DNA of 64,000 nucleotides from an uncultured Clostridia bacterium (GTDB taxonomy: Bacteria; Bacillota; Clostridia; TANB77; CAG-465). A program made the position numbers and the translations under genes. Position 1 is the stretch's first letter, and every line of letters begins with the position of its first letter. The stretch lies in assembly GCA_944387385.1 (NCBI GenBank), contig CALXES010000003.1, positions 1 to 64,000 on the forward strand. The letters are read 5' to 3'. The notes under the pieces are model-generated. The model saw only the letters and a list, made by a program, of their open reading frames with translations, did no database searches and had not been told where the DNA came from. Shown piece after piece: positions 3,999 to 50,469 of this stretch.

Positions 3999-4328
3999 CT
4001 ACAATTTTTTATATATTGATTTTTTCATATTAAAACAATTTTCACTACAATATATTCTCCTAAACATCATAAACTTTATAATAATATATAATTTATCTAT
4101 TATACTTTCTTCATTTATATTTAATAATATAAAAATAATTAAAGGTAGTATTAAATTAACAATAATATATAATCTTAGAGTATACGATATATTAAAACAA
4201 AAAACAAATTTAACTATTAAATAAACATACATAATACTAAATACAAGTGTTTTATAATCAATTATTCCAAGCCATCTATTTTTCTTATTATAATAATTAA
4301 ATACTTCTTGTTTGTTAATTTTTTCCAT
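3999..4328 (-). CDS. VirB3/PrgI-like small membrane protein
   Basis: 109 residues. A short charged N-terminus ends in the segment WLGIIDYKTL, reminiscent of the IPxxIDYK entry of VirB3/PrgI proteins. Two closely spaced hydrophobic segments (about 27-48 and 51-70) and a basic C-terminus follow. In type IV secretion systems this subunit sits in the inner membrane complex next to VirB4. Its start overlaps the 3' end of the VirB6-like gene by 14 nt, so the two are translationally coupled. Assignment rests on size, topology and gene order, not on a strong motif. Confidence 0.55.
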   Translation of the reverse strand: MEKINKQEVFNYYNKKNRWLGIIDYKTLVFSIMYVYLIVKFVFCFNISYTLRLYIIVNLILPLIIFILLNINEESIIDKLYIIIKFMMFRRIYCSENCFNMKKSIYKKL

Positions 4329-5121
4329 AACTTTTTAAATCTCCCATAATTTGACAAATTTTAAACATAACAACAATACTTCCTATAAGTATTGGAATAT
4401 ATATATCTTCTTCTTTTTTTGATACTACTGGAATATAAATAATGATATAATTAAAAGTTTGAATTAAAAGATTAAAAACAAATATTTTTAGCCATATATA
4501 AAAATATATTTTTGATCTGTTGCTAATTAAACATAAAAACAAAATAGGTGATAAAATAATACATATATTTATAATAAAATATCTTACAGAAAAGAAAACA
4601 ACAAGAGCTAATATAAAGATACAGACCATTATATCCTTAAGTCCATTTATTCCTCTTTTATCTGCAAACTTAAAAAAATCATCTAATGTAGAAATATTAT
4701 CTTCTAAAAATCTGTAATCTATTTTTTCATTTGAAACCTCTTCTAAAAAGCTCTTTGTTATATCAGATAAAAAGTAATTAATATCAACAATTTCTTTACA
4801 TATATCAAATGCATTTGAACTTATAATAGATATTATTATTATCTTAACTATAAAATAATATATATTATTTATTGATGTATTACTGTACAAAGAAATTATA
4901 TTTTTAAATACATAATATAAAATAATACCAGAGATAATAGCATTTAAAATTAAAATAATATTGTTTATATTTTTACCTGTAGATAGTGACTTTAATGGCT
5001 CCTTACTAAAAATATCTATAGAAATTATAGAGATATTATCAATAAATTTGTACCCTTCTGATTTAATAGAAGAATAAAACACTGTTAAAATATCATTAAG
5101 ATTATTAAATATGTTCTCCAT
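4315..5121 (-). CDS. VirB6/TrbL-like polytopic membrane protein
   Basis: 268 residues. An amphipathic N-terminal region of about 55 residues precedes about six predicted membrane helices, with a large soluble loop around residues 115-160. This is the topology of the VirB6/TrbL channel subunit of type IV secretion systems. Its ATG overlaps the stop of the pilin-like gene (TAATG), and it overlaps the next gene by 14 nt, so the three form one unit. No relaxase, coupling protein or VirB4 is adjacent; a VirB4-like gene lies 43 kb away. Confidence 0.6.
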   Translation of the reverse strand: MENIFNNLNDILTVFYSSIKSEGYKFIDNISIISIDIFSKEPLKSLSTGKNINNIILILNAIISGIILYYVFKNIISLYSNTSINNIYYFIVKIIIISIISSNAFDICKEIVDINYFLSDITKSFLEEVSNEKIDYRFLEDNISTLDDFFKFADKRGINGLKDIMVCIFILALVVFFSVRYFIINICIILSPILFLCLISNRSKIYFYIWLKIFVFNLLIQTFNYIIIYIPVVSKKEEDIYIPILIGSIVVMFKICQIMGDLKSYGKN

Positions 5122-5444
5122 TATTTAGCTACAGTCTCAATAAATTTAATAATAACATCTAACAGCCTTATTGCAGCATATCCAACAACACTATTTATGA
5201 TTATCTGTTTTCCCATAATTAACTTTCTTTCGTCGCCAAAACTTAATTTTCTTATTAATATACCACTTGTAATACATACTCCCGCTATAGGTGTTGATAT
5301 TTTTTCAAGATATCCTTGAATTTTGTTAAATGCTGAATTTATTTTTGTAACAAGACTTGGTGTAGATGAAGCAGCATATACACTAGATAAAAGTATACAA
5401 TTGCAAGTTATTAACAATATACACATAATAAATCTATACTTCAT
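5121..5444 (-). CDS. VirB2/TrbC-like T4SS pilin
   Basis: 107 residues. A cleavable signal peptide (about 1-24, ending SVYA) is followed by a short amphipathic segment and two hydrophobic helices (about 50-66 and 80-102). They are separated by a charged turn containing FGDERKL, which resembles the GDE.K turn of Gram-positive T4SS pilins. The mature protein would be about 83 residues, as expected for VirB2/TrbC. First gene of the VirB2-VirB6-VirB3-like unit, with ribosome site AAAGGGTGG. No obvious sigma-A promoter was found upstream. Confidence 0.65.
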   Translation of the reverse strand: MKYRFIMCILLITCNCILLSSVYAASSTPSLVTKINSAFNKIQGYLEKISTPIAGVCITSGILIRKLSFGDERKLIMGKQIIINSVVGYAAIRLLDVIIKFIETVAK

Positions 5445-5468
5445 AAGACCACCCTTTCAAAACATAGT

Positions 5469-5655
5469 GTGATTCAAATATATCTTTTTTTGCAAAACCA
5501 AGCTGTGAAAATGTATCTTTCAAAAATGAACGCTTTTCTCCCCACAAAAGTATCATAGTCACAAAATAATACATTTAAGAATATAATATTATGAAAAAAC
5601 AAAATAGAAAAAAATATTTAGAATAAAATAATTTAGATTAAAATATTTGAATCAC
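5469..5655. repeat. 13-bp inverted repeat flanking about 160 bp
   Basis: GTGATTCAAATAT (5469-5481) and ATATTTGAATCAC (5643-5655) are perfect inverted copies. They could be paired operator sites for the pilin-like gene or ends of a small relic element. No coding sequence lies between them. Confidence 0.5.
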
Positions 5656-5803
5656 GGGTAATATACTAACACTCTATTTAAACTCTCACAATACTTTTTG
5701 ACTAATGTTATAAAAGTAGTGCTTTTGCAAATAATAAATTGTAGAAATATTGTATTAAATAATTTAAAATTTGATATTTTTTTTATAATTTTGAAAAAAT
5801 CTA

Positions 5804-5832
5804 TTGACAAGGTCCCAAAATTGTAGTATTAT
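5804..5832 (+). promoter_or_regulatory. Strong promoter of the tRNA cluster
   Basis: Consensus TTGACA (5804-5809) and TATTAT (5827-5832), 17 bp apart, about 44 bp before the first tRNA. Confidence 0.8.
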
Positions 5833-5875
5833 ATATGCGCAGTCAGTTGTGAAACTGATTGTAATATACTTTGTT

Positions 5876-5951
5876 GGGCCATTAGCTCAGTTGGCAGAGC
5901 ACTTGACTTTTAATCAAGTTGTCCGCAGTTCGAATCTGCGATGGCTCACCA
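5876..5951 (+). tRNA. tRNA-Lys (TTT)
   Basis: 76-nt cloverleaf. Acceptor GGGCCAT pairs with ATGGCTC, anticodon TTT sits in the loop CTTTTAA, the T-loop is GTTCGAATC, and CCA is encoded at 5949-5951. Confidence 0.97.
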
Positions 5952-5958
5952 TAAATGG

Positions 5959-6033
5959 GGCCCGTTGGTCAATCGGTTAAGACATCGCCCTTTCACGGCG
6001 GAGTGAGGAGTTCGACTCTCCTACGGGTCACCA
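5959..6033 (+). tRNA. tRNA-Glu (TTC)
   Basis: 75 nt. Acceptor GGCCCGT pairs with ACGGGTC, anticodon TTC lies in the loop CTTTCAC, the T-arm contains GTTCGACTC, and CCA is encoded. Only 7 nt separate it from tRNA-Lys. Confidence 0.96.
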
Positions 6034-6046
6034 TTAAAAGTATATT

Positions 6047-6122
6047 GCCGGAATAGCTCAGTTGGTAGAGCAACGGTCTTGTAAACCGTAGGTCCTCAGT
6101 TCGAATCTGAGTTTCGGCTCCA
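6047..6122 (+). tRNA. tRNA-Thr (TGT)
   Basis: 76 nt. Acceptor GCCGGAA pairs with TTTCGGC through one G-U, anticodon TGT lies in the loop CTTGTAA, the T-loop is GTTCGAATC, discriminator T, encoded CCA. Confidence 0.96.
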
Positions 6123-6137
6123 TTAAAAATGGTAAAG

Positions 6138-6167
6138 CAAGTAATCTTTTAAGGTTACTTGTTTTTT
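6138..6167 (+). terminator. Terminator of the tRNA cluster
   Basis: CAAGTAATC / GGTTACTTG stem (6138-6161) followed by a run of seven T. Confidence 0.85.
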
Positions 6168-6216
6168 TATTGCTTTTTTTTCTAAATCATGTATCATTTT
6201 TATAGGAGGGATATAT

Positions 6217-6678
6217 ATGAAAAAAGATAAAACAATAATACTAACTTTGTCAATTATAATTATCGTTTTAGTTTTAGGATTACTAGGATATACTTGGTAC
6301 AAATATCAGTCAGAAAAAGTACTATCTGATAGTTTAAAGCAAATACAACTCTTAAATGAAATTTATTCAGATTTTATATCTAAAAACAAAAAAGAAAACG
6401 CTACTATTACATTTGACAACAGTGCTTTAACTAACTTTATAACTAAAGAAATATATAGTAATAGTGATATAGAGAAATTAAAAGAACTAGAAATAAATCT
6501 TGAAAATCCGAATAAAACATTTACTTTTAGCATAATGTATGATGATATATCAAATTGTTTAACATTGTTTTTAAAAGAAAATGGTAGTAGTCATTCAATA
6601 TCTAAAAATTATTACTTAAATCCTAGTCCATTTAATATAAATTATAAAACTAATAATATTAGTACAATTACTAATTAA
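6217..6678 (+). CDS. Membrane-anchored protein of unknown function
   Basis: 153 residues. One N-terminal hydrophobic segment (about 6-27) with a basic head predicts a signal anchor with an extracellular domain rich in N, S and K. No recognised domain. The ribosome site TAGGAGGG gives a clear start. It is monocistronic between the tRNA terminator and its own terminator, so it is either constitutive or read through from the tRNA operon. Confidence 0.7.
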   Translation: MKKDKTIILTLSIIIIVLVLGLLGYTWYKYQSEKVLSDSLKQIQLLNEIYSDFISKNKKENATITFDNSALTNFITKEIYSNSDIEKLKELEINLENPNKTFTFSIMYDDISNCLTLFLKENGSSHSISKNYYLNPSPFNINYKTNNISTITN

Positions 6679-6685
6679 TAAATAA

Positions 6686-6714
6686 AAACACTTCATTTTT
6701 GAAGTGTTTTTTTT
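6686..6714. terminator. Bidirectional terminator
   Basis: AAACACTTC / GAAGTGTTT stem with flanking A and T runs, between two convergent genes. Confidence 0.85.
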
Positions 6715-7675
6715 ACATTATAACGTTTTTAGGATTAGTAATATTTTCAGTTATAAATCTAATAACCTTACCATTTTTTATAGTAGCTTCAGTAATTTTA
6801 GCACAAGGATAAGATGTGTTTTCATTTAATACACCTTTATCATCAAACACCATACCTGCTGTTGAAGTAATCATTATTCCTCCTAAAGCCTGTAAACAGG
6901 TTACGTGATAATGACCAAATTGAACAAAACATATATTATAATTTCTATTTTTTATAATAACGTTATCACTCATATTTTCAAACTGTTGCCACATTTCTTT
7001 TTCTATTTTATATGACTTAGTATATGCAAGCTTTCCTGTTCCGTGCTGAAGTCTTTTTACTACACCTTGTATTACTAAGTTTGCGACCATTTCATTTATA
7101 TGATGGAATTCTATTCCTTTTTCACTAAGTCGTCTTTGCACTAAAATAATAGGATTAATCGAATCACCTTTTTCAAATGATAAGTCTCTTTCACCATTAA
7201 TACAGTAATACTTAAATTCTGGATATTTTGAAAATAATTCTATGGCAATTTCTGCTTGTTCTTGAGCTGTTTTTGCTGTAAGATATAAGTCTTGCTTTTT
7301 ATATGAAGGATGTCCTGCACATAAATCTCCAGCTATATGAACATTAGTAATCCCTTCTTTTTTAGCAAGTTCAAGAACATAATTTAGTGTATCCATATCA
7401 CAAAATTTACTTCCAAGATAAATATCACTTAATTCTAGCCACTTTTCTGTTACTTCTTCCTTACTTGAAAAAGAAATTATCTCATAGTTGTTTTCATTAA
7501 ACTTTGTTATATAATACGTATTATTTGCCTTATTATAATTAATATTTCCAGTTGCTGATATTAATTCTTCAATTTCTTCTTTACTTAGTTCTAATTCTTC
7601 AAGTGTACAAGCTTTGGTTCGCATTTTTGAAAGTGCATTAGTTGCTTTTTGTGAGGTTAAAAAATCTTCATTCAT
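6713..7675 (-). CDS. Degenerate metallophosphoesterase-like paralogue
   Basis: About 320 residues from ATG 7675 (GGAGGG 8 nt upstream; an in-frame ATG at 7696 precedes that ribosome site). It aligns along its whole length with the neighbouring phosphoesterase, including the helical N-terminal domain. Metal-site motifs are damaged: D-x-H reads SDIYLG (His to Tyr, residue 86), GDLLD reads GDLCA, and GNHD reads GERD (Asn and His lost, 162-163). The late GHYH is kept. It is probably catalytically weak or dead and may regulate or pair with its neighbour, which ends 2 nt upstream. Confidence 0.8.
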   Translation of the reverse strand: MNEDFLTSQKATNALSKMRTKACTLEELELSKEEIEELISATGNINYNKANNTYYITKFNENNYEIISFSSKEEVTEKWLELSDIYLGSKFCDMDTLNYVLELAKKEGITNVHIAGDLCAGHPSYKKQDLYLTAKTAQEQAEIAIELFSKYPEFKYYCINGERDLSFEKGDSINPIILVQRRLSEKGIEFHHINEMVANLVIQGVVKRLQHGTGKLAYTKSYKIEKEMWQQFENMSDNVIIKNRNYNICFVQFGHYHVTCLQALGGIMITSTAGMVFDDKGVLNENTSYPCAKITEATIKNGKVIRFITENITNPKNVIM

Positions 7676-7677
7676 AA

Positions 7678-8634
7678 TTATCCCTCCTCTTTCCAAGGAT
7701 TATAAAATTCAATTTTTTCCTTGGCAATTTTGTCGCCAACTATTATAAGCTCTCTAAATACTCCACCTGTTTTTCCTGATATTCCCATTCTTTTTTCCAA
7801 ATCACCATCATGCTGAAAATTACCTGGCATTATTATAGTAATTCCACTCATAGACAATGCATAAAAAGTATGAAAATGTCCAGCTTGTATGCTTCTTAAA
7901 TTATATATCTTTCCTCCTATGTGTACATCATTTAAGTTACTTTCAAATACTCTTGAAAGATATACTTGTACCTTATATGACGCTGCTCTTGCTGCTCCAC
8001 CTTGTAGATGAATTAATCTAAATACAATTCCAGCATGAATTATATTCCCTTCATATGCATTTAGATAGGTAAATCTTTTACCAATTTTTGCCATTTTGGC
8101 CTCAAGATACTTGATTGGATCTAATCCACCTTTCATACAGAAAGATTGATCATGATTTCCTGTACTAGCTATATACCAAAAGTCATATTTTTCAAGTATC
8201 GCCATCAACTCGTTTACTTGCTCAATAGCTTTATTTGATTTCAAATTATTCTCTTGACCTCTATATACACCAAAGCCATCAAGTAAGTCTCCTGAGATGT
8301 GTACAAATTCCACGCCTCTTTTTTTTGCCTCTTGGAGTGTTTTATCTAATCCTTGTTTATCAAAATTTCTACACCCAGTATGCAAATCTGATATCTCCAA
8401 AAGCTTAAGCTTAATTTCTTGTCCTTTACTTGGTGAATCTGAAATTTTAATATAAGCACTGTCTCCTGATGTAACTATATAATAAACATAATCACTTACT
8501 CTTGGATCATATTGTTCCTTTATATTATATCCAACATCTCTTAGATAAATTATATCCTCCATAGATAATCTTAGTTGCTTTAACGTGAGCTGATTTTTTT
8601 TCATCTTATCAATTATTTTGCTATAATTTTTCAT
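7678..8634 (-). CDS. Calcineurin-like metallophosphoesterase
   Basis: 318 residues. The first 75 or so form a helical domain shared with the downstream paralogue. The phosphoesterase domain follows with SDLHTG (D83, H85), GDLLDG (D116), GNHD (160-163) and GHFH (252-255), the full set of dinuclear metal ligands. No signal peptide. Substrate unknown; candidates in this superfamily include nucleotides, nucleic acids and phosphoproteins. First gene of a two-gene operon; start supported by GGAGGG. Confidence 0.88.
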   Translation of the reverse strand: MKNYSKIIDKMKKNQLTLKQLRLSMEDIIYLRDVGYNIKEQYDPRVSDYVYYIVTSGDSAYIKISDSPSKGQEIKLKLLEISDLHTGCRNFDKQGLDKTLQEAKKRGVEFVHISGDLLDGFGVYRGQENNLKSNKAIEQVNELMAILEKYDFWYIASTGNHDQSFCMKGGLDPIKYLEAKMAKIGKRFTYLNAYEGNIIHAGIVFRLIHLQGGAARAASYKVQVYLSRVFESNLNDVHIGGKIYNLRSIQAGHFHTFYALSMSGITIIMPGNFQHDGDLEKRMGISGKTGGVFRELIIVGDKIAKEKIEFYNPWKEEG

Positions 8635-8767
8635 AAAAATCCCTCCTTAAATTTAATTTTTAGGAAATCAAGCAAATATTCATTTAGCTCATCATAATTA
8701 ACAACTGACCCAATTATATATTAAAAAAATTTGTGTGTCAATAAATTTTTTTGACATGAATTTAATA

Positions 8768-8796
8768 TTAACAAATTGTAAAATATATGTTATAAT
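8768..8796 (+). promoter_or_regulatory. Promoter of thymidine kinase
   Basis: TTAACA (8768-8773) and TATAAT (8791-8796) with 17-bp spacing. The predicted leader is only about 18 nt and contains the AGGAGG ribosome site. Confidence 0.75.
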
Positions 8797-8820
8797 TTGT
8801 CTGATTTTAGGAGGAAAATT

Positions 8821-9408
8821 ATGTCAAAACTCTATTTTAGATACGGAGCAATGGGAAGTGGAAAAACTATTGATTTATTAAAGGTTGCATATAACTATAA
8901 AGAAAGAGGTCAAGAAGTATTAATATATACTGCAAAAATTGACGATAGATACGAAGTAGGAAAAGTAACTACAAGGATTGGAATACAATCAGATGCTTTA
9001 CTTTTTGACAAAGAAACAAATATTTACAGAGATACAAAAAAACTAGATAGAAAACCTGATTGTATTTTAATAGACGAAGCTCAATTTTTAACAAGAAGAC
9101 AAGTGTTACAACTTAGTGATATCGTAGATTATTTAGATATACCAATCATTTGCTACGGATTAAGAACTAATTTTAAGATTAAATTTTTTGAGGGCTCAAG
9201 AGCTTTAATGGAACTTGCAGATAAAATAGAAGAAATTAAAACCATATGTGAATGTGGAAAAAAAGCAACTGTAAACTTAAGAATGATTAATGGCGTACCT
9301 GTTACATCAGGACCAGATATTTTAATTGGTGGAAACGATTCATACAAAGCAGTTTGCAGAAAATGCTATAAAAAACTAACACATCATGTACCAGGAATAT
9401 ATAATTAA
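8821..9408 (+). CDS. tdk: Thymidine kinase
   Basis: 195-residue type II thymidine kinase (salvage, thymidine to dTMP). Walker A GAMGSGKT lies at 9-16, the Walker-B-like ILIDEAQFL carries the catalytic glutamate, and the lasso domain has a zinc site (CECG pair and CRKC pair). ATG 8821 is preferred over the in-frame ATG at 8797, because AGGAGG lies 6 nt before it and the -10 box ends at 8796. Monocistronic. Confidence 0.96.
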   Translation: MSKLYFRYGAMGSGKTIDLLKVAYNYKERGQEVLIYTAKIDDRYEVGKVTTRIGIQSDALLFDKETNIYRDTKKLDRKPDCILIDEAQFLTRRQVLQLSDIVDYLDIPIICYGLRTNFKIKFFEGSRALMELADKIEEIKTICECGKKATVNLRMINGVPVTSGPDILIGGNDSYKAVCRKCYKKLTHHVPGIYN

Positions 9409-9418
9409 TAAATTTTCA

Positions 9419-9437
9419 CCAGCCTAGCTGGGGTTTT
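9419..9437 (+). terminator. Short hairpin after tdk
   Basis: CCAGC-CTA-GCTGG followed by GGTTTT. The T tract is short, so it may only assist the stronger hairpin downstream. Confidence 0.5.
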
Positions 9438-9450
9438 CTATAAACAAAAA

Positions 9451-9474
9451 AAGATGGATTTTTTAATCCATCTT
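9451..9474. terminator. Bidirectional terminator
   Basis: AAGATGGATT / AATCCATCTT stem with an A-run on the left. It serves tdk and the convergent gene whose stop is at 9473. Confidence 0.75.
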
Positions 9475-10015
9475 ATAAACATACTTGAATAATTTCTTCA
9501 TACTCATATTTAGGAATATTTATATCCTGTAAAACAAGTATCCAAGAATCTCTATCAATTCTTTCTAAACTAAAACAAATATACATTCCACTAGGAAAAC
9601 AATAATTAGAATTGTCAGACTCCAATGGCGGAAGTTTATTAATAATTTTTTTCATGTTTTTATTTGCCCCAGGATATTTCCGACATTCAAAACCATATTC
9701 TAAGTAACATCTTACTCCAGCATTAGCAAAAAAATTTCTCTCAAACCTAGCTCCTCCATTATTAAGATGTTCATTTACTTTATAAATCTTTCCTTTAATA
9801 TCTTCAACAAAATTATCATAAAATGCTTTTTTCACTTTAAGTGGTGCTCCATTTTTCTTAAAAAAGTAATAAAAACCATCTTCGTGCTTTACATCAATAA
9901 TTTTCACCCGACTTTCAATATCAAGATAATTGCTAATTAAATTGACAATTTTACTTAAAGAAAATTCATAAAATTCACCATTAAGTCTAGCAGATACTAA
10001 TAATTCTTTTTCCAT
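9473..10015 (-). CDS. Conserved-looking protein of unknown function
   Basis: 180 residues from ATG 10015, preceded by a GGAGGGAGAAG ribosome site (the longer frame to 10060 reads through that site and is unlikely). The protein is soluble and mixed alpha/beta, with several conserved-looking cysteines and aromatic residues, and ends in an acidic strand region. No domain recognised. Monocistronic, between terminators. Confidence 0.65.
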   Translation of the reverse strand: MEKELLVSARLNGEFYEFSLSKIVNLISNYLDIESRVKIIDVKHEDGFYYFFKKNGAPLKVKKAFYDNFVEDIKGKIYKVNEHLNNGGARFERNFFANAGVRCYLEYGFECRKYPGANKNMKKIINKLPPLESDNSNYCFPSGMYICFSLERIDRDSWILVLQDINIPKYEYEEIIQVCL

Positions 10016-10136
10016 ATTTCTCTTCTCCCTCCTAAAATGTAAGAAAGTACAAAATATCACTAATCTGTGATAATATAGTACTATTAAAAATACACAAATA
10101 TTATATCACTAATTTACATAAATATCAAGTAAAAAA

Positions 10137-10157
10137 GAGAACACAATAATTGTTCTC
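10137..10157 (-). terminator. Terminator of the rsmA-GDPD unit
   Basis: GAGAACA / TGTTCTC stem with A-run on the plus strand (U-tract in the minus transcript), just after the GDPD stop. Confidence 0.8.
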
Positions 10158-10160
10158 TTT

Positions 10161-10883
10161 TTACTTTATAGTATCTTCATTTTCAAATATTACCATATCT
10201 GAAATATCTTTTATTTTGTCATATTCTTCTTTAGTTTTTACTGTCCAAACAGCTAAAGCTCTTTTCTTTCTTTTTTGCTTTTTGTAAAATTTACTATTTA
10301 CCTCAGTATAAAGATAAGAAATAAAGTGTGGTTTAGTAATAACATTAAATACCATTTTTCCAAGTAAAAATTTTAATAGTCTTCCATTTACCTCCCTAAT
10401 ATTTTTAGAAGCTAATTGTCCTCTTATTATACTTGGTACATTTTTCCTTAGCCAATATAAAATTCTTGGATCAAAAGATTCTATAACATATTCACCCTCG
10501 TACTTTTCTAATAAATTTATAAGCTTAGGCATTAGCTCCTTATATCTTTCATTTTTCTTAATTTCAATCATTAAAGGAACTTTACCATCAACTAGCATGA
10601 GCACATCTTCAAAAGTTGGAATAACATTATCTGTTCCTAGTAGCTTAAGCTTTTTTAATTCATTTAAATTCAATAAGTTTACATCATTTTTTATTCCAGT
10701 CATTCTTTTTAAGCTAGTGTCATGAAACACAACCAAATGTCCATCTAAAGACATATTCACATCTAATTCTATTGCGTAACCTTTTAAGATAGCATTTTCA
10801 AAAGCTTTCATAGAGTTTTCTGGTGTATCAATTCTATTAAAAAGTCCCCTATGTGCTATATATTTATATTTTTCTATATTCAT
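10161..10883 (-). CDS. Glycerophosphodiester phosphodiesterase
   Basis: 240-residue GDPD-family enzyme that hydrolyses glycerophosphodiesters to glycerol-3-phosphate and an alcohol. It shows AHRG near residue 9, the ENSMKAF stretch, the metal-site strand IELDVNMSLDGHLVVFHD (E and D plus catalytic His) and a later MIEIKKN glutamate. No signal peptide, so cytoplasmic, like the UgpQ type. ATG 10883 follows AGAGAGG by 6 nt; an in-frame TTG at 10889 is less likely. It lies 15 nt downstream of rsmA. Confidence 0.92.
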   Translation of the reverse strand: MNIEKYKYIAHRGLFNRIDTPENSMKAFENAILKGYAIELDVNMSLDGHLVVFHDTSLKRMTGIKNDVNLLNLNELKKLKLLGTDNVIPTFEDVLMLVDGKVPLMIEIKKNERYKELMPKLINLLEKYEGEYVIESFDPRILYWLRKNVPSIIRGQLASKNIREVNGRLLKFLLGKMVFNVITKPHFISYLYTEVNSKFYKKQKRKKRALAVWTVKTKEEYDKIKDISDMVIFENEDTIK

Positions 10884-10898
10884 GATCAACCTCTCTTA

Positions 10899-11756: not shown

Positions 11757-11778
11757 TATTTCTCCTTTAAAAGAACAA

Positions 11779-11801: not shown

Positions 11802-11813
11802 TAATTAACTATA

Positions 11814-12878
11814 TTATATACTTCCTGTATTTATTAAATTCTCTCTATGTGAAAGTATCTTATTACTATACGCTCTATCAATTATTCCTTGACTAAAGCA
11901 TGAATTATAATATCCATTTTCTCCCATATTATATGAATTTAACGCATACACAATTTGAGTTTGATAGTCTGATGTACGAGTAGTTGCTATACTCATATAT
12001 GTACTTAGCATATATGCTCCAGCTGTCATATTATCATATGGATCATATAAATTTGTTATACCCAATTTTGAACTCAAATTAGAAAAGTTAGATATTCCAA
12101 TCTGACATAAACCTAAATACATTCCACCATTACTAGCATTAGGATTAAATCCACTTTCAGTATACATAAGTGCTATAAACATTGGATAATCTATTCCATA
12201 TCTTTTGCATAGATTGTATGCGTACTGTTGATATTCTAGCGGTAATGATATATTGTACTGAGTAAATCCACCGTCAACAACATCTGTACTAATTGAAGAT
12301 ACAATATCACTTCTTGATACTGTAACCTTAGTTCCAACTTCTACAACTCTGTTTTGTGCTTCTGCAAGTATTTCAGATCCAATTTCATCTTTTTGAATTA
12401 CTTTATCTTTTGTTGATTTTACTATATAACTTATTGATTTTGATCCTTCAACACCTTCTTGTAGTACTTCGGTATCTCCTGAATCTCTTTCTTCATTATT
12501 TACTGTTTCTTCTTCAAATGGTATTGTTTCAATCTCTTGTTTAACACTAGCAACTATTGGAGCATAAGACTCCCTAACACTTTCAATATCAAAAGCTTCT
12601 TCCTCATTACTATATACTGTTAATGTCATACCATTTATCACTCTTGATTTTTCTGATGGTTCAACAATAGCATTATCATTTAAATATATACTATTTTGCA
12701 ATAAGAAAGCATCTACCGAACTAGCTAATGTCTTAACAGATTTTATATCACCATAATAATTAAATGTTATTGTCTTAAGTTGAGTTGTTATTGCAAGTAA
12801 TCCAGCTGTAGCAAATATAAGAACTAGACTTACAACTGTAAGAATCTTTCTAACTATAAATGCTTTATCTTCTTCCAC
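11814..12878 (-). CDS. YabE-like cell-wall protein with lytic transglycosylase domain
   Basis: 354 residues. One N-terminal membrane anchor (about 13-30), a DUF348-like ubiquitin-fold repeat (about 34-92), a G5-like domain (about 112-190) and a C-terminal SLT-type lysozyme fold with catalytic Glu near 241 in YTESGF and the later AYMLSTY and LNSYNMGE motifs. It should cleave peptidoglycan glycan strands outside the membrane. Bacillus YabE has a different catalytic domain, so this is the transglycosylase variant at the conserved locus next to rsmA. Ribosome site TAGGAGG. Confidence 0.88.
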   Translation of the reverse strand: MEEDKAFIVRKILTVVSLVLIFATAGLLAITTQLKTITFNYYGDIKSVKTLASSVDAFLLQNSIYLNDNAIVEPSEKSRVINGMTLTVYSNEEEAFDIESVRESYAPIVASVKQEIETIPFEEETVNNEERDSGDTEVLQEGVEGSKSISYIVKSTKDKVIQKDEIGSEILAEAQNRVVEVGTKVTVSRSDIVSSISTDVVDGGFTQYNISLPLEYQQYAYNLCKRYGIDYPMFIALMYTESGFNPNASNGGMYLGLCQIGISNFSNLSSKLGITNLYDPYDNMTAGAYMLSTYMSIATTRTSDYQTQIVYALNSYNMGENGYYNSCFSQGIIDRAYSNKILSHRENLINTGSI

Positions 12879-43533: not shown

Positions 43534-43545
43534 TATAAAATTATA

Positions 43546-44028
43546 CTATTTTTTGTCATAAATTATAAAATGTTTAAGTTCTTTTTTAGTATTTTTTAAA
43601 AGTTCTAATTTTAAAAACTCTGGTTTAAAATTATCTAACTTATTAATCTCTAACCATTTAAACTCTAATTTTACTTTCTCATATTTATCATCTTCTATTA
43701 CCAAATAATCTTTTTGAATAACTTTAGTTTTAGGTTTAAGTAAGTAATAAAATCCAAGTTCATGAAAATGTCCTAGTTTTCCTTCAAAGAAATTCTCTGT
43801 TACATATAATAATTTATCTATAACAATATCTATTCCAGTCTCTTCATAAAATTCTCTTAATATTGCTTCTTCTGTATTCTCCATTATCTCTACATGTCCA
43901 CCAGGCAAACAATAAAAACCGTTATTATTAATTTGAACAGTGAGAATTTTATTATCAACAATTAAAATTCCAGAAACTCTATATTTAAATTTAGTGTCAC
44001 CAAATGAAAATTTAATATCTTGTTTCAA
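43546..44028 (-). CDS. Nudix hydrolase
   Basis: 160 residues. Complete Nudix box from about 43: GGHVEIMENTEEAI then LREFYEETGID, fitting GX5EX7REUXEEXGU. Hydrolyses a nucleoside diphosphate-linked substrate, identity unknown. It lies 14 nt downstream of a radical SAM gene and shares its operon. Confidence 0.92.
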   Translation of the reverse strand: MKQDIKFSFGDTKFKYRVSGILIVDNKILTVQINNNGFYCLPGGHVEIMENTEEAILREFYEETGIDIVIDKLLYVTENFFEGKLGHFHELGFYYLLKPKTKVIQKDYLVIEDDKYEKVKLEFKWLEINKLDNFKPEFLKLELLKNTKKELKHFIIYDKK

Positions 44029-44042
44029 AGCTAAATCTCCTT

Positions 44043-44936
44043 TTAGATTAGAGTAGTATCCACATATCTTGTTGGCTTTACATTAAAGTTTACAGGTTGT
44101 GATAAAGCCTTGATTATATTATCTCTAATATTTCCTTTTCTAAAATCTATATCGTCTTCTTCTGATTGAATACATTGCTTTAAACTACCACAACTAGTAA
44201 CTCTAAGATGCATTTTTTTACATACATCACATTCTCTTATTCTGCAATGAGAATGAAAAAATGTAACTGCTGTAAAGTCTCCATCCATTCCGTGCCATTC
44301 CTTAAATAAATCATCATATTTTGGTTTTAAATTAAAATCAGATATAATTCTCTCTTTCATTTCTAAATATTCTTTTCCTGTAGTTTCAGCAACTTCATTT
44401 TTTACTTCTTCAAGTATTTTAATTCTTATTTTATTATCATATGCCCATTTAACTAGCTTATATAAATTATCATAATCTCCATTAAATACAGTTGAAATAG
44501 TAACATTTACTCCTGAATTTTTTACTCTTAAAGTATTTTCTAAAGCTTGCTTTGAACTTATTCCAACAGGTGATTGTTTAGAAATTGGTGCATCAAAATA
44601 ATCTAAACCAACAACAACTCTATAAATCCATCCTTTTTCAATCATATACATAAGTTTATCTATTTCAATAATATTTGTATTAATTCCTACCTTTAAATGA
44701 TATTTTTCTGCAAGCATTTGACAAATATCAAAAATTTCTTTATGTATAAGAGGTTCTCCTCCTGTAAGTCTTACTTGCTCTAGTCCTAAGTCATATGAGT
44801 TTTTAATTAGATTTTCTATATCATCTTTACTTAACTGATTAATTACTTTATTTCCTTCATTATGGCAATACACACATTTCATATTGCATCCTGAAGTTAT
44901 TGAAATTCTATACTCATTTTTTGGTAACTGTAACAT
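44043..44936 (-). CDS. MoaA-like radical SAM protein
   Basis: 297 residues. CNMKCVYC (residues 18-25: CxxxCxxC) binds the SAM [4Fe-4S] cluster; TGGEPL near 58-63 is the SAM-contact GGEP motif. A second cysteine set CDVCKKMHLRVTSCGSLKQC occurs late, as in the MoaA second cluster, but its spacing is CX2CX15C rather than CX2CX13C and no C-terminal GG ends the protein. No other molybdopterin genes are near, so the substrate may differ from GTP. Paired with a Nudix gene. Confidence 0.8.
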   Translation of the reverse strand: MLQLPKNEYRISITSGCNMKCVYCHNEGNKVINQLSKDDIENLIKNSYDLGLEQVRLTGGEPLIHKEIFDICQMLAEKYHLKVGINTNIIEIDKLMYMIEKGWIYRVVVGLDYFDAPISKQSPVGISSKQALENTLRVKNSGVNVTISTVFNGDYDNLYKLVKWAYDNKIRIKILEEVKNEVAETTGKEYLEMKERIISDFNLKPKYDDLFKEWHGMDGDFTAVTFFHSHCRIRECDVCKKMHLRVTSCGSLKQCIQSEEDDIDFRKGNIRDNIIKALSQPVNFNVKPTRYVDTTLI

Positions 44937-44964
44937 TTTTATTTCCTCACTTTCACTACTATAT

Positions 44965-45741
44965 CTAATATCTCTTTTTACCTAAATCTATCCTCAAGTC
45001 ATCAAAATCAATATTACTATATCCTTTCATTGCATATTTCCAAAGTTCATTAATCCTTTTTACTTTTTCTTCTTTTGATGTACCTTCCTCTATTGCTTTA
45101 AAAAATAAATCAATAAATTCTCTTTCTGGTATCTTTTTATGCTGAGCTTTTTGTATCTTTTCATTTGTATATAACTTATATATTTTAGTTTGCGATAAGT
45201 TTGAAAATCCTTTAAGCTTATGATAAAAATCTCTAATTCTTTCTATTGTTAAAAAATAGAAATTCTCGAAATATGGGTCATTTTGCACTCTTAGCTCTTC
45301 TGTTGCAAGTACTGCCTTTCTTATAGAAGCTATCTGATAAATTGCTTCATGTCTTGTATAACCTGGTAAAGCTCTAGAATACTTTTCTTTAATGTAATCT
45401 ATTAATTCTTTTACCTTACCATTTCTATCAAAGATTACTTCTCCATATCCAATCATAGATAAAAGTGAATCTTCACATTTCATATAATCTGAGTTTGCTC
45501 TCTCATATATTTTAGATACGGTTCTTTCAAAATATTCTACTTGAATTCCATTTACAGTTTTAAATCCTTTAATCTGATTTGCATCAGAATCGTCATCAAA
45601 TAGTACCATAAGATCAATATCTGAAAATTCATTATAGGTTCCTGTATGAAAGCTTCCGTAAAATACAATACCTTCGACGTCTTCATTTTTTAAATAATTC
45701 ATTTCATCAATAAACTTATTTAAAGCATCTCTATAATTCAT
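44965..45741 (-). CDS. Nucleotidyltransferase-fold protein
   Basis: 258 residues from ATG 45741 (CGGAG ribosome site). GSFHTGTYNEFSDIDLMV (from about 29) gives the polymerase-beta-like GS-x-DxD motif; a third carboxylate is in VEYFE. A C-terminal helical domain (about 125-250) has several basic patches. Antibiotic nucleotidyltransferases and tRNA-related enzymes share this layout; the exact role is unclear. Cotranscribed with the radical SAM and Nudix genes (28 nt). Confidence 0.78.
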   Translation of the reverse strand: MNYRDALNKFIDEMNYLKNEDVEGIVFYGSFHTGTYNEFSDIDLMVLFDDDSDANQIKGFKTVNGIQVEYFERTVSKIYERANSDYMKCEDSLLSMIGYGEVIFDRNGKVKELIDYIKEKYSRALPGYTRHEAIYQIASIRKAVLATEELRVQNDPYFENFYFLTIERIRDFYHKLKGFSNLSQTKIYKLYTNEKIQKAQHKKIPEREFIDLFFKAIEEGTSKEEKVKRINELWKYAMKGYSNIDFDDLRIDLGKKRY

Positions 45742-45767
45742 ATTTTCACTCCGTACTAAACAAAAAA

Positions 45768-45803
45768 AATCCAATAGAAAAATTATTTTATTTCTACTGG
45801 ATT
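45768..45803 (-). terminator. Terminator downstream of the YlbF-like unit
   Basis: AAATCCARTAGAAA / TTTCTAYTGGATTT stem with long A-run on the plus strand, between the 51-residue gene and the nucleotidyltransferase start. Confidence 0.8.
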
Positions 45804-45876
45804 TAATTATAGCATAATTTTCCAATTTTTACAATAGCATTTAAGTATTATTTTACATAAATTATTTTCATAATAA

Positions 45877-46032
45877 CTATATATCTATAATAATTCTTTT
45901 ATGAACAATCTTCATATTTTTAGTTTCTCTTTGTTTTAAGTCCTCAGGTGCATCATTCACATTACCTGAATATATTACTTTTCCATCTTCTAGAATATCA
46001 ACATCATAGTTTCTAACGTCTTTAACCCACAT
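45877..46032 (-). CDS. 51-residue small protein
   Basis: ATG 46032 is preceded by TAGGAG 6 nt upstream. The product starts MWVKDVRNYDVDILEDGK and ends VHKRIIIDI, acidic in the middle and strand-rich. Only 9 nt after the YlbF-like gene and before a terminator, so the codons and context support a real gene. No known family. Confidence 0.6.
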   Translation of the reverse strand: MWVKDVRNYDVDILEDGKVIYSGNVNDAPEDLKQRETKNMKIVHKRIIIDI

Positions 46033-46041
46033 ATTATACTC

Positions 46042-46380
46042 CTAAAATTTAACTAACTCTTCTATTGCTTCTCCCATTGATTTTTGTAAATCTGCTAAAA
46101 TTATATTAATTTTCATTTCACATTCTAAAATTTTTCTGCAATCCTCATTTTGTATAACTATTGAATAAAGATTTTCCATTTCTTCTTTTTTCTCTTTTGT
46201 CACATCTTGTCCATTTAAAAATGCGATTTGAACTTCATTTTGTTTATCTTTAAAATCTTTTAACATGTTATATATCTCTGTATTTGATTTTAAACCATCT
46301 TTTAGCCTTTTATATTCTATATATTCATCTGTTTGCTTAAAAGATGAAACTAAACTATTAATATTATCATAAAAATTCAT
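46042..46380 (-). CDS. YlbF/YmcA-family protein
   Basis: 112 residues, all alpha-helical, typical of the Com_YlbF family (PF06133 type): a helix pair with YIEYKRLKDGL and the DLQKSMGEAIEEL end. In Bacillus, YlbF, YmcA and YaaT form a complex that promotes Spo0A phosphorylation, competence and biofilm. This copy is near the spo0E-like gene and the VirB4 operon, but a functional link is only inferred. Confidence 0.8.
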   Translation of the reverse strand: MNFYDNINSLVSSFKQTDEYIEYKRLKDGLKSNTEIYNMLKDFKDKQNEVQIAFLNGQDVTKEKKEEMENLYSIVIQNEDCRKILECEMKINIILADLQKSMGEAIEELVKF

Positions 46381-46442
46381 TAAATCACCTGTCCTTTTGG
46401 ACTATATTATATAACACTTTTGGTTATTTTTAAACATAAATA

Positions 46443-47135
46443 CTAAATTTTTTCTAAATTTTTGCATATATCAAATTGAGTTTGAGTTAATTTTCCCTTC
46501 TTTCTTGATACAAGTTCTGTTACGTTTTGTATTATTGAATTCTCACTAATACAATTATTATCAAAAGAGACTTTCTTTTTTAATTTATTAAGTTTTCCAG
46601 CAATTTCTTTTATATCTTTTAAATCAAATTTATCATATGCATCATACCAATCATTACACATCTCTTTAAAATTATCCACTTTATCTAAACACTTAGAAAT
46701 TCCATTATATAACTTAGATTTAAAATCTTTACTTGAAATAAAGCCTTTTAAACTTTCAAAAAAATCTTCAATATAATTATAAAATATATTGCCATATTTT
46801 TTAGCATTTTCAACTATTCCTACCCCTATATTAATGGATGTAGTAAGACCTCCCTTTAATGCTGTATCTACCATTTGGTCTATTTGACTTAGATTCTCTT
46901 TTTTTACTCCAATTATGCTTAATCCTTCATTAATACTACTACTTACTGCTACCTTAATTATATTTAAAAAGTCTCTTTCTTTAAGAGCTTCTTTAACATC
47001 ATTTAAAACCTCTTTTATATGCTCATTGACTGGCATAGATTTTATAATGTAATTTGATCCTTTTTCTATTACTTTTGATATTATATTAGATACCTCTACT
47101 TTATTTTTCTCTATTTCTATATTTTCGTTATTCAT
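46443..47135 (-). CDS. Unknown protein of the VirB4 operon
   Basis: 230 residues, predominantly alpha-helical, no membrane helices certain. A central glycine-rich region GGLTTSINIGVGIVENAKKYG (run from about 95) has amphipathic or membrane-peripheral character. Starts after AAGGAGG and overlaps the ATPase gene by 8 nt, so it belongs to the VirB4 operon. No recognised family. Candidate dedicated partner of the T4SS-like machine. Confidence 0.65.
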   Translation of the reverse strand: MNNENIEIEKNKVEVSNIISKVIEKGSNYIIKSMPVNEHIKEVLNDVKEALKERDFLNIIKVAVSSSINEGLSIIGVKKENLSQIDQMVDTALKGGLTTSINIGVGIVENAKKYGNIFYNYIEDFFESLKGFISSKDFKSKLYNGISKCLDKVDNFKEMCNDWYDAYDKFDLKDIKEIAGKLNKLKKKVSFDNNCISENSIIQNVTELVSRKKGKLTQTQFDICKNLEKI

Positions 47136-48267
47136 AATTATCCTCCTTATATTTTAAAATTCTTTCTATTAATTTGTTTTTTAAGTTAAATATTCTACCT
47201 ATATTTAGCTTTCTTAAAATATACTTTAAATTATACTTTAAATACCTTTCTTTATATTTGTTCTTATAGCTTAAAATGAAACTGAAATAAACATATCCAT
47301 TAATACTAAAACTCATATTATTTAATATACTTTTTAATCTTTTTCTTAAGAATACTTTATTACAAACTATACTTGCATATGATAGAAGATTCTCATCAAT
47401 ATATATTGTATCAAGGGCATACTCTTTCATAGCCTTTTTAGTAGGTTCTATTATATGAAATAAATTATAACTATTTTCTTTTGCTATACTATATATCTTA
47501 TTTATTATAAATGTAGACGTATCAACAACAACATAATCATAATAATTTTGTAAACTATCTATAATTTTAGTAATTATCACTGTACTTGGGACTGAAATAG
47601 ATTTTGAATTTAAAATGTACTTTAAATTATAATGTCTAGAATCACTAGTCTCATAGTTTTTAATATCCTTTAATTTATTATCATTTAAGTCTTTAATATA
47701 ATCTAATAATGAATAATTTTTATTTACATCTAAATATGTATCTAAAGTTGGACTTATAAAATCCAAATCAATTAAAGCAACTCTTTTTGTTCTATCTTTA
47801 GCTATTATATTTGAAATAACAAGCGATAGTATTGTCTTTCCTACACCTCTACTTCCTGTAATACAAATAACTTTATTATTTTTTTCTTGATTCTTAAGAT
47901 ATTTATATACAACAATCCTTGGATTTTCAATCAAATCAACTAAACTATCTAAACTAAATTTTAATCCTTCTATTATGTTAAAAACTTCTTTTGAAAATAA
48001 AAACTCTTTTAAATTTTGATCTAGTTTTTTTACTAGTACAATAATTTGTATATTCTTACTCAAACATTTTAATTTTATAATTAAATCTTTAAATTTAATC
48101 TCTCCATTTATATCTTCCCTAATTAAAAGCACTATTTTTTCATTTTGACATACCAAACTATATACAATATCTGTTGACTTAGCTAAATAAATATCATAAT
48201 CTTCAGCATATTTTTTAACAACCTTCTCTTCAATCACTTTATTGTTTACAGCTACTATCATCTTCAT
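47128..48267 (-). CDS. CpaE/TadZ-like ParA-superfamily ATPase
   Basis: 379 residues. N-terminal about 115 residues resemble a degenerate receiver domain (CpaE-like). A P-loop GSRGVGKT (138-145) lacks the first Lys of the deviant Walker A (KGGxGKT). ALIDLDFISPTLDTYLDV (from about 164) matches the CpaE/MinD switch strand. CpaE/TadZ proteins place pilus machines at cell poles. It overlaps the VirB4-like gene by 29 nt. The first ATG (48267) follows AAAGAGG by 8 nt. Confidence 0.75.
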   Translation of the reverse strand: MKMIVAVNNKVIEEKVVKKYAEDYDIYLAKSTDIVYSLVCQNEKIVLLIREDINGEIKFKDLIIKLKCLSKNIQIIVLVKKLDQNLKEFLFSKEVFNIIEGLKFSLDSLVDLIENPRIVVYKYLKNQEKNNKVICITGSRGVGKTILSLVISNIIAKDRTKRVALIDLDFISPTLDTYLDVNKNYSLLDYIKDLNDNKLKDIKNYETSDSRHYNLKYILNSKSISVPSTVIITKIIDSLQNYYDYVVVDTSTFIINKIYSIAKENSYNLFHIIEPTKKAMKEYALDTIYIDENLLSYASIVCNKVFLRKRLKSILNNMSFSINGYVYFSFILSYKNKYKERYLKYNLKYILRKLNIGRIFNLKNKLIERILKYKEDNYE

Positions 48268-49927
48268 TTATAATACCTCTTTCAAACTCATTAGGACTTA
48301 TTTTCAGTTTGACACTATTATTATCTATAAGCAAAATGGCTTCTGCCTTTTTAAGTGATAAGATACTATTAGGATCTACTGTTAAATTGTCACTAATAGT
48401 CCTTGCCTCAGTATAATTAGATTTAAAGAAAAACTTAAATTTTGAATTATTTAAAATTGTATTTGCATATATTCCATTTTTATATCTATAAAAATCTGTA
48501 ATTTCCTGAGTTATTGTTACAATTGAACAATTTCTTTTTCTAATTGTCTTATACATATTAAAAATCATTTCTAGAATTTCTTCTTCTTTTACAAATTTCC
48601 ATAACTCATCAATATATATAATTGTATTAATATCCTCTATATTATTCATTATATATTCAATTATTTTTGATACTAAAAAAGAATTATTTACTATATTAGA
48701 CATATTTAAAACATATAATTTATTTTCTTTTTTTATATTAGTTTTCTTAGAAAAAAACTTTAATTCATTTTCTGTTAAACTACTTAATATATCTTTTTGT
48801 ACTGAATTATCTAAATATTTTATTAAATCTCTTAATGTAGGAAATTTATCGTCTTGTATCATTTCATGTTCTAAGTATATGTTACTTTCATCTTCAAGCC
48901 TAGTTACAGACATAATATCATTTGAAATATTAAAATCTTGATATAATTTATACAACTTTGTCCTAACATATGGTATATCTATTTCATGTATTCCATTTAT
49001 AAATTTTAGTACTTTTTCTATTTTTTTATCCAAGAAATTTTCTTGCATTATATCCTTTTTAGTTATTTCAAGAATATTTACATAAGTATTATAAAAGAGA
49101 GTTGTTCCATAAAAGCTATTACATAAATCTAGATACTCTCCTTCTATATCAAATATAATCTGTTTTCTATTTAAAAAATAATTTCTAATAATAAAAAGCT
49201 TTGTAAAATATGATTTTCCAGAGCCACTGCTTCCAAAAATACAAATATTTGCATTTTCATATTTACTACTAAAAATATCTAACCTACAAATTTTATTTTC
49301 TGACGTATACCCAAGCATAATTCCATTTTCATCTATAAAATTAGTAGTATAAAACGGAAAAATATTTGAAAGAGCATCTGTAGTTACATAAATTTTGTTT
49401 AATAATTCTTTATTTTTTAGTGTTAATGGTAAATTTGATAGATAAAACTCTAAGTGTCTAAAATTAGTTATTTCTGCACTTATTCCCTTTGAAAAAAATT
49501 TTGCTTTAATTGAAAAAATAATTTTTAATAATTGATTAAAATCATTTGAATAAAAAGAAAATATTAAAGATATAATATATATTTCTTGATTTTCTACTTG
49601 TATCTTTTTTCTCATGCTTGCGGATTCATCTTTTGTCATACTCAATATATCTATGTTTCTTTGACTTTTATTTATAGTATTTAGTTCACTACTTACAGCG
49701 CCAATATTATATGTTAAATTATTTAATATTTTAATTGGATCTTGTTTGCTAACATACATTGAAAAATCATAATCTAAATTTCTTGGAAATTCATTTACTA
49801 TATCTAGAAAAAAAATTGTACTAGGTAAAGACTTAATGCTTAAAGAAATAATATAATTATCATTTAATTTAATATATCTAAAATTAGTGTTATCTATTAT
49901 AGTTGGTAAAAAATCACTATTTTCTAT
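48239..49927 (-). CDS. VirB4/TraE-type T4SS ATPase, probable non-AUG start
   Basis: Walker A GSSGSGKS lies at about 232-239 and Walker B YIDELW near 440 in the extended numbering. The frame is open 56 codons upstream of ATG 49759 to an ATA at 49927 with AAAGAGG 7 nt before it; the extra sequence (NFRYIKLNDNYIISLSIKSL etc.) matches the N-terminal strand region of clostridial VirB4 proteins, which the ATG start would cut off. VirB4 powers subunit or substrate handling at the cytoplasmic face. The family N-domain precedes the ATPase domain. Confidence 0.78.
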   Translation of the reverse strand: MENSDFLPTIIDNTNFRYIKLNDNYIISLSIKSLPSTIFFLDIVNEFPRNLDYDFSMYVSKQDPIKILNNLTYNIGAVSSELNTINKSQRNIDILSMTKDESASMRKKIQVENQEIYIISLIFSFYSNDFNQLLKIIFSIKAKFFSKGISAEITNFRHLEFYLSNLPLTLKNKELLNKIYVTTDALSNIFPFYTTNFIDENGIMLGYTSENKICRLDIFSSKYENANICIFGSSGSGKSYFTKLFIIRNYFLNRKQIIFDIEGEYLDLCNSFYGTTLFYNTYVNILEITKKDIMQENFLDKKIEKVLKFINGIHEIDIPYVRTKLYKLYQDFNISNDIMSVTRLEDESNIYLEHEMIQDDKFPTLRDLIKYLDNSVQKDILSSLTENELKFFSKKTNIKKENKLYVLNMSNIVNNSFLVSKIIEYIMNNIEDINTIIYIDELWKFVKEEEILEMIFNMYKTIRKRNCSIVTITQEITDFYRYKNGIYANTILNNSKFKFFFKSNYTEARTISDNLTVDPNSILSLKKAEAILLIDNNSVKLKISPNEFERGIINEDDSSCKQ

Positions 49928-50469
49928 ATTAATACCTCTTTGTTAAGACTCTCATATAATACATTTGTTATTATCTTTTTTGTCTTTAATCTTCTTGTAT
50001 TACAACCAACATAATCTAGTTTTTTTATAACACTATCTAGCTGACTAATATCAAAACTTGTATCTCTATTAATTGAAATAATAATATAATATTTAGTTGT
50101 ATATATCATTTCTTCCTCAAGATTTTTACTTATATTCTTTAAATATTCATTCATAAGAGAAATATAGTTTTGACTTGAATTTTTACTTATAACTTTAGCT
50201 AAGTTATCCACATAGCTTTCTACATTAATTTTTTTATTAGAAATATAAATTTGAAAATCATAATTTAATTCACGAAGAAATTCATTATATAGATTTAAAA
50301 TATTAGATTGAACATCCATTGAAAAATTTAAAAATGTAACCGGCTCTATTTCATAAATATAAACCTTCTTTATATTATCCTTATCTTTTAATAAAATGTA
50401 GCTATCAGTTACATCAATTAAATTAAATAAACTGTTTATATTTGCATATTTAATATTGCATCCCTCCAT
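49924..50469 (-). CDS. VirB4-associated N-terminal companion protein
   Basis: 181 residues if ATG 50469 is used, but that codon lies upstream of the only good ribosome site (GGAGGG); the in-frame ATT at 50454, 7 nt after GGAGGG, is the better-placed start (176 residues). Residues about 16-50 (ILLKDKDNIKKVYIYEIEPVTF) and the later RELNYDFQIYISNKKINVE resemble the small protein preceding VirB4 in clostridial conjugative elements (start ...TKDGRYVKILEVxPINF). First gene of the operon. Confidence 0.6.
   Translation of the reverse strand: MEGCNIKYANINSLFNLIDVTDSYILLKDKDNIKKVYIYEIEPVTFLNFSMDVQSNILNLYNEFLRELNYDFQIYISNKKINVESYVDNLAKVISKNSSQNYISLMNEYLKNISKNLEEEMIYTTKYYIIISINRDTSFDISQLDSVIKKLDYVGCNTRRLKTKKIITNVLYESLNKEVLI

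Follow-up and report, generated by a model that had tools for sequence, protein, structure and literature searches.

The window analysed here, bases 1-64000 of contig 3 of an uncultured Clostridia bacterium (genome G000; 1.52 Mb, 97% complete, 30 contigs), encodes on its minus strand the parts of a type IV secretion system (T4SS), distributed over locus 1 (3999-5444) and locus 2 (46443-50469), which lie 41 kb apart. The T4SS core is present as VirB4 (in two genes), VirB6 and VirB2, accompanied by a VirB3-like protein, a CpaE/TadZ-like ATPase and a new soluble protein, X230. A T4SS-like system over two loci had been proposed in a sequence-only reading; comparison with relatives confirms it and extends it to an order-wide system, a layout at the replication-origin cluster and a fuller version of the machine. 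We conclude that the window system is a real, domesticated mini-T4SS. The genome thus carries a stripped-down relative of the plasmid DNA-transfer machine, which likely serves the cell itself, perhaps in DNA uptake.

The order was sampled with 38 genomes, G000 included, all of them drafts, so that an absence may reflect an assembly gap; 12 of them make up the window clade. The relatives named below are metagenome assemblies, mostly of uncultured Clostridia, and their loci were called mechanically as open reading frames and labelled by profile. Alignments of orthologues were turned into family profiles, which identify more than the scans of single proteins did.

Genes of the two loci

Locus 1 consists of three minus-strand frames, placed as first described, whose ends overlap by 14 and 1 bases. 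The 107-residue VirB2-type pilin (5121-5444) is recognised by its frame, its hydrophobicity and the T4SS_pilin family (PF18895), which all 30 of the 30 pilin family members match at E<=0.01; the window pilin itself matches at 3.5e-5, with a score of 24.2 that is below the 26.6 cut-off. Its hydrophobic segments by the Kyte-Doolittle (KD) scale are residues 1-27, a signal-like N-terminus, and 81-99. The pilin stop shares TAATG with the start of virB6 (4315-5121), which encodes a 268-residue VirB6-type channel protein with five hydrophobic segments. TrbL/VirB6 Pfam matches were obtained for 7 of 34 family members, the window protein not among them, and its AlphaFold 2 (AF2) model (predicted local distance difference test, pLDDT, 78.6) has as its top structural matches the R388 VirB5-VirB6 stalk and Legionella DotA-IcmX chains. 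The 109-residue VirB3/PrgI-like protein (3999-4328) has two hydrophobic segments. All matches of its family are weak (PrgI in 8 of 33 members, VirB3 in 2 of 33, the window member having none), and the sole PDB match of the profile (4.7e-5) is a designed protein. This assignment, weak by sequence, is supported by gene order beside virB4: the gene lies immediately 5' of virB4 in two relatives (L068/L069), and it overlaps virB4N in G024 and G032. Locus 1 was assigned to no other family. Sequence searches of the PDB with the VirB6, VirB2, VirB3, X230, VirB4-N and VirD4 profiles found no useful relative.

Locus 2 begins with a 181-residue protein encoded by its own gene (49924-50469), followed by the part of VirB4 with the motor domain (48239-49927). 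The latter matches NCBIfam VirB4_plasma (9.5e-46) and Pfam P-loop_TraG (1.6e-14) and carries GSSGSGKS and YIDELW motifs, and the profile of its family matches the VirB4 structure 4ag5 in the PDB at 9.7e-60. On one NCBIfam VirB4 model the 181-residue protein covers positions 100-277 and the ATPase 361-893; the match of the former, to NF045975, has an E-value of 1.8e-5 and is shared by 21 of 29 family members. Since the two proteins span consecutive parts of one model, VirB4 is split over two genes, and what had been called a small N-terminal companion is a separate gene as described but the first part of VirB4 itself.

The coordinates given earlier for the minus-strand frames of locus 2 (46443-47135, 47128-48267, 48239-49759 and 49924-50469) hold, except that the ATPase start lies upstream of the ATG at 49759. 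The frame is open 5' of this ATG, back into the end of the 181-residue gene, where, in 9 of the 11 clade members compared, an ATA codon (49927-49925 in the window) shares bases with the TAG that ends the first gene. G003 and G012 have ATG there, overlapping a TAA stop, and G014 has no called first gene. The motor gene therefore likely starts at the ATA, with translational coupling to the gene before it, which would give a protein of 562 rather than 506 residues. A programmed frameshift joining the two genes seems less likely: in the window clade the frames overlap by 15-27 bases, with no usual slippery heptamer by eye. Re-initiation at the ATA, which is preceded by a Shine-Dalgarno sequence of AGAGG type, would fit better.

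The CpaE/TadZ-like ATPase (47128-48267, 379 residues) is of the MinD/ParA class (CbiA, 1.7e-6), and its family profile matches MinD/ParA structures at best at 1.6e-21. X230 (46443-47135, 230 residues) has no hydrophobic segment and no confident family in single-protein Pfam and NCBIfam scans. Its AF2 model is all-helical, with ten helices and a pLDDT of 92.4, and a structure search of the PDB with this model gave no match at E<=0.001.

Genes around the loci complete the picture. Past locus 1 stand a dnaD-type replication gene (2958-3929, minus strand; DnaB_2 domain in a relative's orthologue) and a dnaI/dnaC-type helicase-loader-like ATPase gene (1939-2943, minus strand), both conserved neighbours; of 41 copies of locus 1, 31 are followed directly by dnaD. 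Between virB3 and dnaD lies a sigma-70-like promoter (3986-3958, minus strand), promoter-like in 11 of 12 cases and near consensus, with TG before the second hexamer, which suggests that dnaD may be independent of the T4SS operon. A protein with G5 and SLT domains (11814-12878, minus strand; SLT 2.1e-15) is encoded 6 kb off locus 1 and is by its domains a general cell-wall lytic enzyme, which might conceivably take the place of VirB1. Three small plus-strand genes (50605-51510; 52, 128 and 121 residues) diverge from virB4N and recur there in many members of the genus; scans assigned the 128- and 121-residue proteins to no family. Assemblies from Bacilli, Erysipelotrichaceae and Mycoplasmatota (L139, L142, L148 and L158) likewise encode VirB4-N and the VirB4 motor in separate genes, with a VirB3-profile match directly 5' in L139 and L158 and a weak VirD4-profile match nearby in L139, L148 and L158.

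Gene order and inheritance across the order

The VirB4 orthologue occurs in 36 of the 38 genomes, each at 5.7e-29 or better (not in G028 or G033), and VirB6 in 35 (not in G024, G028 or G029); the two, representing both loci, are found together in 34. X230 is detected by profile in 33 genomes (not in G024, G027, G028, G029 or G032). In G033 it sits about 80 bases from a contig end, so the missing VirB4 is probably an assembly gap. A wider search of 391 genomes of the class with the VirB6 profile returned 33 matches at 1e-5, of which 17, at 2.1e-72 or better, all belong to the window's order and 16 much weaker ones (1.6e-12 to 5.9e-6) fall outside it, one of them (L189) with an adjoining pilin-profile match. 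Among the non-matching genomes listed (338 are unlisted), one, G029, is from the order. As far as sampled, this version of the T4SS appears to be order-specific. In titles and abstract openings of the open-licence literature, nothing was found on a T4SS-Tad hybrid or a chromosomal Clostridia T4SS of this kind, an absence that is not proof.

In other families of the order, locus 2 forms part of the replication-origin cluster as gyrB–[virB4N–virB4C–tadZ–(cpaF–tadB)–X230]–gyrA, and some relatives have a facing operon, virD4–virB2–virB6–virB3–dnaD–dnaI. Origin genes recognised by Pfam at L122 are those for YidC, RnpA, DnaA, DnaN, a RecF/SMC_N protein, GyrB, GyrA and the DnaD- and DnaI-type proteins. 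The nearest labelled gene at 60 VirB4 loci is gyrB upstream in 22, gyrA downstream in 17 and both in 12; four contigs are counted twice (L055/L122, L065/L126, L059/L118 and L105/L115), and L054, L072, L073 and L112, which hold other VirB4 families, are excluded. At the 26 window-genus loci plus L115 and L116, gyrB never occupies that place, and an M16 peptidase gene stands there instead in 22. Locus 1 and the coupling protein lie past gyrA on the opposite strand, from adjacent to about 9 kb away, in G025, G031, G036, G037, L119, L121, L124 and L138. This joint gyrA neighbourhood and the overlap of virB3 with virB4N tie loci 1 and 2 together and, with their co-occurrence, argue against independent inheritance. 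A very long open frame in one relative was discounted, half of the stretch being N.

The fuller machine of the relatives has further components. Many encode a VirD4/TrwB-type protein 5' of virB2 (PF10412, 1e-10 in L057), and 22 of the 38 genomes have this coupling protein as a strong match heading locus 1, with stops in one genome and truncated by the contig end in another. Many also have, following tadZ, genes for CpaF (T2SSE, 6.8e-24; strong in 16 of the 38) and a TadB-like protein (T2SSF, 1.4e-5). TadZ and CpaF stand apart from virB4 in G024 and G032, and G028 has TadZ-CpaF-TadB with neither a VirB4 nor a VirB6 orthologue; CpaF and TadB are thus best seen as a putative Tad-type module that the virB4 operon either gained or gave up. 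We take CpaF to belong to the VirB11 superfamily. The virB4 operons with CpaF and TadB would then be a candidate exception to, and bear upon, the statement of a recent review that Gram-positive T4SSs universally lack VirB11 homologues, the VirB11-class ATPases (PMC12857230).

The window clade is monophyletic, with a support of 1.0 in a tree built from a concatenation of six proteins, of which five are T4SS parts. It keeps the VirB2/3/4/6 core, and VirD4, CpaF or any PF00437 ATPase is over the cut-off in none of the 12 genomes. A VirD4 search of G000, in which coupling proteins of the TcpA type had no test of their own, returned only a 44-residue match (9.5e-6) inside an 851-residue frame. The claim that there is no coupling protein is therefore true of the window clade but not of the system. 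CpaF is also absent from f3 and from five genus members that keep VirD4 (G002, G013, G015, G017 and G022). The order thus presents a natural series, from coupling protein with CpaF/TadB, through coupling protein without CpaF, to the stripped core of the window; with it, the question of which task belongs to which T4SS part can be approached.

Tree distances of the T4SS proteins correlate with those of DnaD at 0.90 for VirB4 (n=24), 0.83 for VirB6 (n=27) and 0.89 for X230 (n=22), the benchmark of DnaD against DnaC being 0.82 (n=18). Correlations of VirD4 within the genus comprise 3-4 genomes only and show nothing. Across three pairs of genomes, the seven genes have ratios of nonsynonymous to synonymous change (dN/dS) of 0.03-0.29, rough values with synonymous changes near saturation in some pairs. 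X230 (0.03-0.04), the most constrained gene of both loci, and the pilin (0.06-0.08) are lowest; DnaD and DnaC give 0.02-0.07. These comparisons indicate that the T4SS genes are under purifying selection and vertically inherited, mostly tracking the host replication protein. Domestication, as suggested from the window alone, is supported by this order-wide vertical inheritance, but the split into two loci is no sign of it, a pair of facing operons being present in relatives already. The missing transfer gene is that of the VirD4-type coupling protein, which relatives retain.

No relaxase of family PF03432, the only one searched for, was found in G000, which upholds the earlier claim within that family; 24 of the 38 genomes likewise have no match. 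A relaxase gene within 20 kb of the loci on the same contig occurs only in G006, about 15 kb away. That gene and a match to another VirB4-like ATPase lie in contig 3 of G006 (24.3-30.7 kb), some 15-20 kb from locus 2, and the region resembles an insertion that neighbours the mini-T4SS without enclosing it. For the window system itself a mobile element was rejected, without a search for integrases or att sites, on the lack of a PF03432 relaxase in G000, order-wide synteny and host-like trees.

The genome of the window has a second, fuller T4SS (L054; contig 16, about 27.9-33.8 kb), with a duplicated pilin, PrgI, a two-gene VirB4 (460 + 667 residues), a large VirB6-like protein and a 1092-residue CHAP-domain protein. 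Its VirB4 is present in 27 of the 38 genomes at E<=1e-40. Dependence of the mini-system on this T4SS was rejected: the other 11 genomes, which include the close relatives G011 and G019, are without that VirB4 at this threshold, and 10 of them (all but G028) keep the mini-system VirB4.

Possible functions of the system

We propose, with a probability of roughly 40%, that the products of the two loci make up a single envelope machine by which the cell imports DNA for its own use, in the manner of Helicobacter ComB or archaeal Ted. VirB2 subunits would assemble into a short filament or pseudopilus on a VirB6/VirB3 platform, with the two-chain VirB4 as motor. The TadZ-like ATPase would bring either the complex or the cargo into place at the membrane, and X230 could be a cytoplasmic scaffold or adaptor. 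External DNA would be drawn through the wall and passed to ComEA and ComEC. Joint action of the loci had been suggested before, and linkage, co-inheritance and neighbouring genes speak for it; we infer the assembly of the parts, the direction of transport, DNA as the substrate and the task as a whole.

ComEC is over the cut-off in all 38 genomes. No PF00437 ATPase exceeds the cut-off in 15 of them; the same search was positive in all 14 control genomes. By this test the 15 genomes have no ComGA-, PilB- or CpaF-type motor, and every one of them has a ComEA-type match over the cut-off. The window clade would thus combine a ComEA/ComEC-type pair lacking the usual pilus motor with a T4SS core lacking a coupling protein.

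Several observations weigh against uptake. Genomes with pilus motors have ComEC and ComEA-type genes too, and 10 of the 14 controls have ComEC, so the Com genes do not single out the T4SS. The VirD4-type coupling protein of the fuller machine suits export. ComB of H. pylori needs VirB11 (ComB11) (PMC13395361), and no VirB11-class (PF00437) ATPase is over the cut-off in G000. The scanned locus proteins have no VirB1- or VirB8-type domain (neither was sought genome-wide), and no competence gene was seen beside either locus. Distances of VirB6 and VirB4N within the genus correlate weakly (0.26, with 7 of 500 shuffles as high). The T4SS of Patescibacteria, likewise mostly relaxase-less and near dnaA, is yet tied to epibiosis (PMC12102498). 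The machine is, moreover, known here by computation, from its genes.

The main rival, to which we give tentative but serious weight, is a protein-export or contact-pilus machine, in which the cell would use a surface pilus or exported proteins to attach to nearby cells or to engage in exchange with them, a role proposed for Bartonella Trw and Patescibacteria. The Patescibacteria example is a relaxase-less chromosomal T4SS that is associated with epibiotic growth and in many classes is located close to dnaA (PMC12102498), and the coupling protein of 22 genomes and the small genomes of the order (0.9 to 2.1 Mb) would suit such a role. Against it, no conserved candidate effector was seen at the loci, X230 lacks a hydrophobic segment and is constrained about as strongly as DnaD and DnaC, and the window clade has lost the coupling protein while its core stays constrained.

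A DNA-export machine seems improbable. It would export chromosomal DNA of the cell itself, to the outside or to neighbours, by means of the VirD4-like protein and a putative nicking or resecting enzyme, with the window clade as a reduced form. A VirD4/TrwB-type gene does head locus 1 in 22 of the 38 genomes and gyrase, recF, dnaA, dnaD and dnaI make up the neighbourhood in relatives, but PF03432 relaxases (other families being outside the search) are missing from 24 genomes and VirD4 was not found in the 12 genomes of the window clade.

It is very unlikely that the loci belong to two machines, with a set of VirB4/Tad-type ATPases in locus 2 and, in locus 1, an unconnected pilin operon kept near dnaD. 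Such a division could account for the 41 kb between them, for the promoter-like site of dnaD, for locus 2 without VirB6 in G029 (by profile) and VirB4 without VirB6 in G024 (by single-sequence search), and for the TadZ-CpaF-TadB set of G028. It is opposed by the joint gyrA neighbourhood in other families, the VirB3-virB4 adjacency in G024/G032, co-occurrence in 34 of 38 genomes and correlated trees, and the VirB4 missing from G033 was probably lost to a gap in the assembly. That the system is what decay has left of an old conjugative element, without present function, is hardly tenable: repeated absence of CpaF, absence of the coupling protein from one clade on the tree and a few broken copies (virB4 in two pieces in G037, virD4 with stops in G023) would fit it, but it is rejected by the dN/dS values, which for all seven genes lie far under 1 in each of the three genome pairs, and intact ATPase motifs and the presence of VirB4 in 36 and VirB6 in 35 genomes also speak against it.

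Returning to uptake, the boldest form of the proposal is doubtful: that a T4SS-Tad hybrid in a replication-origin operon (gyrB to gyrA) of the whole order turned a conjugation machine into a core DNA-uptake device, with the window as its most reduced form, free of coupling protein and VirB11, and as the first such Gram-positive domestication. If true, a conjugation apparatus has become a permanent organ in a bacterial lineage, with much of it encoded beside replication genes order-wide.

Comparison with known systems

The T4SSs of Gram-positive integrative conjugative elements and plasmids are related through VirB4, whose best NCBIfam matches are the Mbov_0397 and CD1110 conjugal-transfer ATPases. 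Unlike them, the window system has no relaxase found by our search and no CHAP/VirB1 gene at its loci, is non-mobile by synteny and has a CpaF/TadB pair in relatives. That pair, with TadZ, recalls the Tad pilus; unlike in the Tad pilus, the set in relatives lies mostly inside the virB4 operon, and the window keeps only TadZ, a TadA/CpaF motor being found in none of the 12 clade genomes. The Patescibacteria T4SS resembles the window system in being mostly relaxase-less, chromosomal, kin to monoderm conjugation systems and often near dnaA/dnaN. It differs in its tie to epibiosis and in that the available part of its description has no TadZ/CpaF/TadB operon or X230; the comparison is one of description (PMC12102498).

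T4SSs without VirD4 include the DNA-importing ComB, which is chromosomally dispersed and passes DNA to ComEC (PMC12857230). Helicobacter ComB shares with the window system VirB2-B4 and VirB6 homologues, the lack of VirD4, dispersed chromosomal loci and a retained ComEC (PMC12857230 and PMC13395361). Unlike the window system it has VirB7-10 and ComB11, and its host is Helicobacter, not a member of the Clostridia. No VirB7-VirB10 homologues are among the proteins of the two loci; no genome-wide search for them was made.

Similar in composition are the archaeal Ted and Ced systems, which have a VirB2-, VirB6- and VirB4-type core, are chromosomal, sometimes with distal loci, and have no relaxase found; Ted combines this core with a MinD/ParA ATPase (PMC9905601). 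The window system has the Ted-type set of parts, and the likeness is one of composition. Import is described there and inferred here, and the window system differs further in being bacterial and in its VirB3-like protein, its two-gene VirB4, X230 and its setting among replication genes.

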